Below, piece after piece: positions 56,312-57,550 of a DNA stretch of 64,000 nt; position 1 is the first letter of the stretch, and every line of letters starts with the position of its first letter. Where the stretch lies: the NCBI GenBank assembly GCA_002457145.1, contig NTJP01000008.1, positions 1-64,000 on the forward strand, in the 5' to 3' direction. The notes under the pieces were generated by a model. It was not told the origin of the DNA, did not search any database, and was given only the letters and a program-made list of their open reading frames with translations. A program made the position numbers and the translations under genes. The DNA is from Marine Group II euryarchaeote MED-G38. Its GTDB lineage: Archaea > Thermoplasmatota > Poseidoniia > Poseidoniales > Thalassarchaeaceae.

Positions 56312-56384
56312 TATTTCCTAAATAATGACTATTTTTAGGAAATAGTCTTAATATAAACATTTAATTAGGAAATGTTCCTAGGAA
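56312..56384. promoter_or_regulatory. Operator-like array of TTCCTA/TAGGAA half-sites
   Basis: Five TTCCTA/TAGGAA hexamers lie in 71 bases (56314-56319 as TTTCCTA, 56336-56341, 56366-56371, 56375-56380, 56379-56384). They form a perfect 11-bp inverted repeat (TATTTCCTAAA 56312-56322 with 56334-56344), a second perfect 8-bp one (GACTATTT 56327-56334 with 56340-56347), a 7-bp one (56356-56362 with 56370-56376) and TAGGAA/TTCCTA (56366-56380). This sits between divergent genes, directly before an HTH gene. Confidence 0.6.
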
Positions 56385-56388
56385 TATT

Positions 56389-56637
56389 ATGGCTACTAAA
56401 GAACAAATTGCACAGATTGTTCAACTTAGAGGTACAGGCCACTCTTTGGAAGAGATTGCAAAAATTGTTGGATTATCCAAATCTTCGGTAGCTTATCAAC
56501 TTAAATTACTAAAGAAAAAGTCATCCAAGTCTAATTCTTCTGAAGTATTTTCTTCTGCAATTTTAGCAGGTACAATCGGTGCAGCAGGTGGTTTAGCATT
56601 AGCAATTCTTATTCAGGAATTAAAAAAAGGTAAGTGA
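56389..56637 (+). CDS. Small HTH protein with C-terminal membrane span
   Basis: An 82-residue protein. Residues ~4-43 are an HTH (GHSLEEIAKIVGLSKSSVAYQL), similar to resolvase/HTH_23-type DNA-binding units. Residues ~53-75 form one hydrophobic segment (AILAGTIGAAGGLALAILI) with a Lys tail, so the HTH would face the cytoplasm at the membrane. It is coupled to the NYN nuclease (4-base gap) and preceded by the palindromic array, suggesting autoregulation. No family name is known to me for this combination. Confidence 0.75.
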   Translation: MATKEQIAQIVQLRGTGHSLEEIAKIVGLSKSSVAYQLKLLKKKSSKSNSSEVFSSAILAGTIGAAGGLALAILIQELKKGK

Positions 56638-56641
56638 AATT

Positions 56642-57550
56642 ATGAAAGATAAATATGAAAAAATTGTCATTGATGCAGCAAATATTCTCCACAATGACAC
56701 TGGAATTGAAATGAAAGATGAAAAAGGTCAACCAAGAGTCCAATCTCGGCCAGAAAGACTCAAAGACTGTATATCGTTCTGTGAAAAAAAAGGGTGGAAA
56801 GTAACCGCTTTTTTAAAAGAATCAACCTATAAATATGCTGTATCATTAGCCAAAAGTAAATCCAATACAACAGTCGGGGATGTCAACATTCTAGATAATC
56901 TGATAGAACAAGATAAATTACATTTAATTGCCGCAGATAAAGAAGACATTTATTGGGTCGATTATGCAGTTGCTGAAAATGCTTTGATAGTTACACATGA
57001 CAAATTTAGAAACGAGATGAAGGAATATCAAGATAGAGATTGGAAAGACATCAATAAACGTACATTAAGAGATTTCAAATTTGTTAACAATAAATTCATT
57101 CTTCCAAGTTTGAAAAAGAAACAAGTAACTAGAAAACAAAATAAAGAACAAATTACTCTTGATCAAATATTCACCGCTATTCAGAAATTAAACACTAATG
57201 TTGCAGAATTAGAAAGATATGTAAGGAAAAGAGAATTCACTAATCTTAAAAAATCACAAGATAAACCAAAAACTAAACAACAACAAATAAAATCGAATCT
57301 TGAAATAGTTAATACTGTGGTTAATAGCCTCTTATCCTCAGGTAATGCAGTCGTTGCATCACATATCCAATCAGAACTAGCTCGACCAATATTGGGCTTA
57401 GATGAGAATATACATGAATGGAAAGCAGGTTGGTCTGAAGACTTACGTGAAATCTTAGGATACTCCAAAACTGGAGGATTTCCAAAATGGTTAATCTCTA
57501 ATTCCAAGAAGAAAATTGTACAACAAGGTAACAAATTATCTTATGCCTGA
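56642..57550 (+). CDS. Regnase/Zc3h12a-like NYN ribonuclease with C-terminal helical domain
   Basis: A 302-residue protein. Residues 8-155 follow the Zc3h12a-type NYN fold: Asp11 and Asn14 (IVIDAANIL), Asp102 aligned 18 residues before Asp120 (IVTHDKFRN), and FKFVNNKFILP; Regnase-1 Asp248 would be Asn124 here. These acids hold magnesium for RNA cleavage. Residues ~165-225 are a basic, Gln/Lys linker helix; ~225-300 may be a winged-helix/LOTUS-like domain (VNSLLSSGNAVVASHI). It shares an operon with the HTH-membrane protein. Confidence 0.72.
   Translation: MKDKYEKIVIDAANILHNDTGIEMKDEKGQPRVQSRPERLKDCISFCEKKGWKVTAFLKESTYKYAVSLAKSKSNTTVGDVNILDNLIEQDKLHLIAADKEDIYWVDYAVAENALIVTHDKFRNEMKEYQDRDWKDINKRTLRDFKFVNNKFILPSLKKKQVTRKQNKEQITLDQIFTAIQKLNTNVAELERYVRKREFTNLKKSQDKPKTKQQQIKSNLEIVNTVVNSLLSSGNAVVASHIQSELARPILGLDENIHEWKAGWSEDLREILGYSKTGGFPKWLISNSKKKIVQQGNKLSYA

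Follow-up and report, generated by a model that had tools for sequence, protein, structure and literature searches.

A small HTH protein with a hydrophobic helix precedes a Regnase-like NYN gene and other nuclease or defence-type operons in Marine Group II archaea

Regulators encoded ahead of diverse defence systems are already known in bacteria, and prokaryotic immunity is already known to use NYN RNases. BrxR and CapW are first-gene DNA-binding regulators that lie beside diverse defence systems, with inverted repeats upstream (PMC9122601, PMC9122588); BrxR represses its own island, and about half of its homologues adjoin known systems (PMC9122601). Similarly, the CapK and CapS regulator genes stand ahead of diverse immune operons (PMC13373217), and RptR controls restriction systems in diverse bacteria (PMC12255303). 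On the effector side, a Zc3h12a-type NYN domain with a catalytic Asp/Asn set is found in Regnase/ZC3H12 proteins and in KHNYN, which is antiviral in vertebrates (PMC6615859, PMC12709174), and a CRISPR-associated NYN protein acts as a prokaryotic immune RNase through Mn-dependent cleavage of ssRNA (PMC11346440). VapBC-type toxin-antitoxin (TA) systems, with their PIN toxins, join a small DNA-binding protein to a PIN-fold nuclease in a two-gene autoregulated operon.

The locus described here, from the Marine Group II euryarchaeote MED-G38 (Thalassarchaeaceae), recalls each of these systems and matches none of them. It lies in a stretch of 64,000 nucleotides, which we call the window, and comprises a small HTH protein (the leader) followed by a Zc3h12a-type NYN protein. 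The leader resembles BrxR, CapW, CapK/CapS and RptR in its place and its diverse neighbours; however, BrxR and CapW, both bacterial, combine a winged HTH with a WYL sensor domain, and the architectures of CapK (a kinase) and CapS (a repressor) are HTH-STAS-GHKL and STAS-wHTH, respectively, whereas the leader is a single protein of 82 aa, made of an HTH and a hydrophobic helix without WYL, STAS or kinase domain, and is essentially confined to one archaeal order. The NYN protein carries the domain and residues of Regnase and KHNYN but is archaeal, linked to an HTH leader, and has neither CCCH zinc finger nor KH domain. The CRISPR-associated NYN protein differs in architecture and belongs to a type III CRISPR locus (PMC11346440), whereas no cas gene was seen beside the window pair. 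As for VapBC, the likeness in operon layout is offset by a leader that is common to non-toxin multi-gene systems and unrelated nucleases, and by an effector of NYN type with an extra C-terminal domain. A literature search of limited reach returned no papers on the leader family; the module is genuine and, as the initial annotation supposed, apparently undescribed.

A leader and an NYN protein in tandem

The pair is laid out as follows.

56389 to 56637, + strand: HTH-TM leader gene, 82 aa; family found in 38 of 319 genomes of the order, counting diverged and remote matches.
Leader protein: HTH, residues 3-44; Lys/Ser-rich linker; glycine-rich hydrophobic helix, residues 57-75 (56557-56613); basic tail.
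56642 to 57550, + strand: Zc3h12a/Regnase-type NYN ribonuclease-like effector, 302 aa; PF11977, E 4.4e-12.
NYN protein: NYN domain, residues 6-162; coiled-coil-like linker; C-terminal domain, residues ~222-302.

The initial annotation had drawn both genes at these positions, on the same strand with a 4-bp gap, and both stand as drawn. The genome that carries them is 1.37 Mb in size and 75% complete. The adjoining genes are ordinary (lipoproteins, P5C reductase), and among the genes scanned from 53.7 to 60.1 kb of the window no match to a defence-like gene flanks the pair. Both genes are under purifying selection, with dN/dS of about 0.12-0.19 for the NYN gene and 0.10-0.12 for the HTH gene.

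The HTH that had been read in the small protein is confirmed by Pfam (HTH_7, E 3.6e-6, above the family's cut-off) and by AlphaFold2 (AF2), which returns a three-helix HTH with a block pLDDT of 84-91; over the 82 aa HTH models alone match, and a WYL domain is absent. As for the single membrane span also claimed, the hydrophobic segment is there: residues 57-75 are glycine-rich and score 2.19 on the Kyte-Doolittle scale over 19 residues. It is a likely membrane helix, to which AF2 gives a confidence of about 50. All canonical leaders keep such a Gly/Ala-rich segment of 19-23 residues (Kyte-Doolittle 1.8-2.2) flanked by basic residues, with borderline hydrophobicity in some (genomes G053 and G101).

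The NYN protein scores 46.4 bits against PF11977 (RNase_Zc3h12a), for which the cut-off is 23, and its family profile matches structures of ZC3H12A/B/C and KHNYN (E 2e-6 to 2e-5), with the D102/D120 region aligned to both groups. The residues singled out as catalytic in the initial annotation, D11, N14, D102 and D120, are the same in all 8 homologues compared, at identities as low as 21%, and the D102-D120 spacing is indeed 18 residues. The AF2 model, built from a shallow 5-row alignment, reaches a pLDDT of 47, and a Foldseek search with this low-confidence model gives PIN domains as its best matches, all non-significant (best E 0.15); the fold assignment therefore rests on sequence. By that measure the window protein is a member of the Zc3h12a-type NYN family, and it would be expected to act as an RNase. 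No CCCH zinc finger lies beside the domain: no zinc-finger Pfam family matches, and the protein has two Cys only (C43, C47). No PADLOC model covers it.

The C-terminal domain of ~80 residues (57305-57547) is common to the homologues and recurs as a separate 90-aa ORF at locus L110. In the window protein it matches no Pfam family, a LOTUS/OST-HTH identity being likewise without Pfam support, and the L110 ORF has a weak match, below cut-off, to the NrS-1 polymerase tail domain. Other types of NYN protein also occur in the order (L139-L145, L150, L151); they measure 350-520 aa, frequently contain basic repeats, resemble core genes and are without an HTH-TM leader.

Relatives of the two genes recur side by side. 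Within the window genus both are present in 5 of 10 genomes and never one alone, always adjacent, in the same neighbourhood and with the same 4-bp gap, and in four genomes of the sister family (G303, G232, G169 and G302) the leader again lies directly 5' of an NYN gene, although that of G169 is divergent and that of G302 is represented by its first 15 codons before the contig ends. The initial annotation's premise that the two would be neighbours in related genomes thus holds in 5 of 5 genus genomes and in four lineages elsewhere, far above chance. In G232 (L110:7141-8069) the NYN effector lies in two frames, a 180-aa NYN ORF and the 90-aa C-terminal ORF, which may reflect decay of the effector, an error of sequencing or a gene that is truly split. 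No clean empty site was found in the window genus, because the genomes that lack the pair have a different neighbourhood. A viral origin was considered and set aside: no NYN relative was found in viral contigs or phage records, and the viral-contig matches to the leader HTH are short or lie within unrelated fusions.

A leader family joined to different effectors

The leader profile matches 38 of the 319 genomes, patchily, across 12 of 22 genera and both families, a count that includes some remote HTH matches as well as the diverged variant of genus g10, a core gene, most of the genomes compared being incomplete MAGs. Leader loci are labelled almost without exception Poseidoniales, Thalassarchaeaceae, Poseidoniaceae or Euryarchaeota, and 375 genomes drawn evenly from the phylum yielded one weak match outside the order, lacking the hydrophobic helix. 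One locus labelled Dehalococcoidia (L165, RS420) carries a leader nearly identical to that of Poseidoniales genome G041 on a bacterium-binned contig, either through mis-binning or through very recent transfer.

What follows the leader varies widely. Counting canonical leaders whose contig continues into a downstream gene, and the five window-genus genomes as one, there are 15 distinct contexts, and in 12 of them the next gene is of nuclease or defence type:

NYN: five contexts.
PIN7: G215 (E 1.2e-18).
HNH: G053, G294, G196.
NgoFVII-type PLD enzyme: G041, 145 bp away.
Wadjet/Mks-like operons: G049, G177 (MksE, E 1.4e-19 and 1.7e-19).

The other three contexts (G090, G101, G167) have small proteins of no known function. 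Apart from G041, the measured gaps between leader and effector are -4 to +10 bp. As a control, ten upstream neighbours of leaders belong to housekeeping families or families of no known function, the only nuclease-type matches among them being an RNase PH exosome-like subunit and a metallo-beta-lactamase-fold protein. In having several unrelated systems beside them, the leaders resemble defence-operon leader regulators, a functional class that is not one homologous family. A dedicated HTH-TM/NYN two-component system, which the initial annotation had implied, is rejected: the leader has many other partners, and close NYN relatives stand without a leader in six genomes (G137, G141, G256, G285, G286 and G289).

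The two Wadjet/Mks-like four-gene operons (L058:7082-12432, L118:6810-12124) receive marginal PADLOC scores, and were called from MksE matches together with weak similarity to JetB/JetC/MksF and DUF2399/JetD_C/DUF7281. The leader-type HTH is also found fused to the N-terminus of other proteins: the type I methyltransferase HsdM (G309; L120:6840-7442), a 709-aa protein of no known function (L122:4172-6301), and a 330-aa protein encoded two genes ahead of a PbeA-like helicase (G053; L055:745-6187), the last two with inverted repeats upstream. In genus g10 and in G003 (L060, L062-L067) a core-gene relative of the leader is 95-98 aa long, with an acidic tail and a weak hydrophobic segment; this g10-type relative has no adjoining nuclease, and its own dyad, CCTATCAWTGATAGG, lies at -48.

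Exchange of effectors can be followed most closely in G232 and G169, which belong to different genera: their leaders are 91% identical at DNA level and the 260 bp upstream 78% identical, whereas the figure for the downstream DNA (61) is close to that for shuffled sequence (58.7). The leader tree joins the window leaders to that of G196, from another family (support 100/99), whose effector is a coiled-coil and HNH pair; the effector labels need at least 8 changes in all, and NYN at least 2 separate gains or losses. Nearly alike leaders with unlike downstream sequence, together with this tree, therefore indicate that leader and promoter form a cassette joined to different effectors.

Palindromic sites and the control of the operons

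Nearly every leader has a 15-bp palindrome 42-60 bp (for most, about 45 bp) upstream, the leader of G079 being an exception without a convincing one. The sequence of the palindrome goes with that of the recognition helix: SQQ-V/I with TTTGTATWATACAAA, SQQTV with TTGGTATAATACCAA, SRQ with TTGGCATTATGCCAA, SQPS (g10) with CCTATCAWTGATAGG, and SKSS, in the window genus and in G196 of the other family, with TAGGAAATATTCCTA-type dyads, of which the window copy is TAGGAAATGTTCCTA. The two arms covary, a change in one being mirrored in the other. Exact TTTGTATWATACAAA occurs 11 times in 10 of the 319 genomes searched; ten of the sites lie 42-60 bp before a leader, and at the eleventh the contig ends 11 bp past the dyad. 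The reversed pattern, as control, has 0 occurrences in the 319 genomes, and all 10 genomes with TTTGTATWATACAAA fall among the 38 that bear a leader, a coincidence with a chance of about 2e-10 if genomes are drawn at random and relatedness is ignored. In the window, the region before the leader reads as follows.

56312 to 56344: operator-like inverted repeat TATTTCCTAAA-N11-TTTAGGAAATA; arms 0/22 variable and spacer 6/11 over five genomes.
56350 to 56357, + strand: putative TATA-like box AATATAAA, between the two operator-like sites.
56366 to 56380: operator-like 15-bp dyad TAGGAAATGTTCCTA, 23 bp before the leader start; pattern match with 0 mismatches at 56365-56380.

All five genomes of the genus that bear a leader have a single copy of the inverted repeat, and the other five have none. 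Over the same five genomes the arms of the TAGGAAATGTTCCTA dyad are 0/10 variable and its spacer 2/5; overall, the operator arms vary at 0 of 32 positions vs 41 of 98 elsewhere upstream (Fisher p 1e-6). The same dyad as TAGGAAATGTTCCTA stands upstream of the G196 leader, and the position of the TATA-like box is typical of archaeal promoters. These comparisons provide strong evidence, at the level of sequence, for a link between operators and leader.

With the pair, its NYN membership, the leader family, the exchange of effectors and the operator-leader link read from sequence, we consider it fairly probable that the leader is an autoregulator, and probably a repressor, of interchangeable nuclease or defence effectors. 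The leader would bind the palindromic sites at its own promoter and control the operon, most likely by repression, because its sites flank the TATA-like box; the position of the operators is compatible with a repressor or an activator alike. Perhaps a stress or infection signal relieves this control, and the NYN RNase, made upon induction of the operon, would then cleave viral or cellular RNA. The hydrophobic helix may bring the regulator to the membrane, or else mediate oligomerisation. The evidence for regulation is strong and that for a defence role of the operon family circumstantial, on a finding broader than the initial annotation. That annotation had proposed, as one option, that mRNA decay is regulated from the membrane; autoregulation, at the level of transcription, of exchangeable nuclease or defence effectors is better supported.

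Could the hydrophobic helix do more? It might anchor the HTH protein, and perhaps the promoter, so that a membrane disturbance induced by infection is sensed and the operon released. The retention of the Gly/Ala-rich segment with basic flanks in all canonical leaders speaks for this, but hydrophobicity is borderline in G053 and G101, AF2 gives two short low-confidence helices, the segment could be a soluble oligomerisation helix, and there is no known partner or signal; we consider such a sensor unlikely, if conceivable, and it would add to autoregulation, with which it is compatible, rather than replace it.

Less probable still is an ordinary RNA-turnover operon, in which the NYN protein trims or degrades cellular RNA, the HTH-TM protein merely sets its level, and no antiviral role exists. 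Purifying selection and the ordinary neighbours of the pair fit this, as do the core-like character of other NYN proteins in the order and the proposal that the CRISPR-associated NYN protein is a crRNA trimmer (PMC11346440). However, presence in only half of the genus genomes, and a leader held in common with restriction-like and Wadjet-like systems, argue for an accessory role in conflict.

The initial annotation had also suggested a toxin-antitoxin or abortive unit. An abortive-infection outcome could still follow from autoregulated effectors, but a strict, type II-like TA pair, in which the HTH-TM protein would, as the antitoxin, both bind DNA and neutralise the NYN toxin by direct contact, is improbable: the gene order (a small DNA-binding protein, then a nuclease), the close spacing, the palindromes resembling operators at the promoter and the fact that PIN-fold toxins are common all suit it, yet it is disfavoured because the same leader heads four-gene Wadjet-like operons and restriction enzymes (the NgoFVII-type enzyme), as well as HNH proteins, and, in addition, near-identical leaders face unrelated NYN proteins, as fits a promoter-level regulator and not a fitted inhibitor, and close NYN relatives exist without any leader.

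Returning to the autoregulator, a bolder reading, on which our own judgement is evenly divided, is that this is an undescribed archaeal immune architecture, in which a small HTH autoregulator, associated with the membrane and having an operator code of its own, serves as a universal control cassette, and recombination between genera swaps the nucleases or entire defence systems that follow it. If so, TTTGTATWATACAAA-type dyads could be used to find Marine Group II defence operons missed by current tools; in any case, the dyad flags accessory nuclease operons at DNA level, among them Wadjet-like and HNH systems that are hardly detected by PADLOC. To our knowledge, the control of defence genes in archaea has been little studied. 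A 2026 survey of archaeal immunity, so far as it was searched, makes no mention of Poseidoni-, HTH or NYN (PMC12988326). The leader family, in the most abundant archaea of the surface ocean, offers a regulator that is open to test and whose operator code can be read, and it connects an RNase of Regnase type with what is probably antiviral defence in archaea.

A further repeat, distinct from the operators, is an intergenic element of ~70-76 bp (beginning GGTAGCGTTAGCACCGACCCACTGCAAGCCCTTCG), present in 78 of the 319 Poseidoniales genomes and 18 genera (L111:5327-5400, L110, L109, L112, L181-L209). It matches no Rfam RNA family, nor the integron attC consensus. The element shows strong sequence conservation with almost no covariation, and is not leader-specific: it often lies just 3' of a gene and near contig ends, as well as upstream of several f2 leaders, and is possibly a mobile or recombination element.
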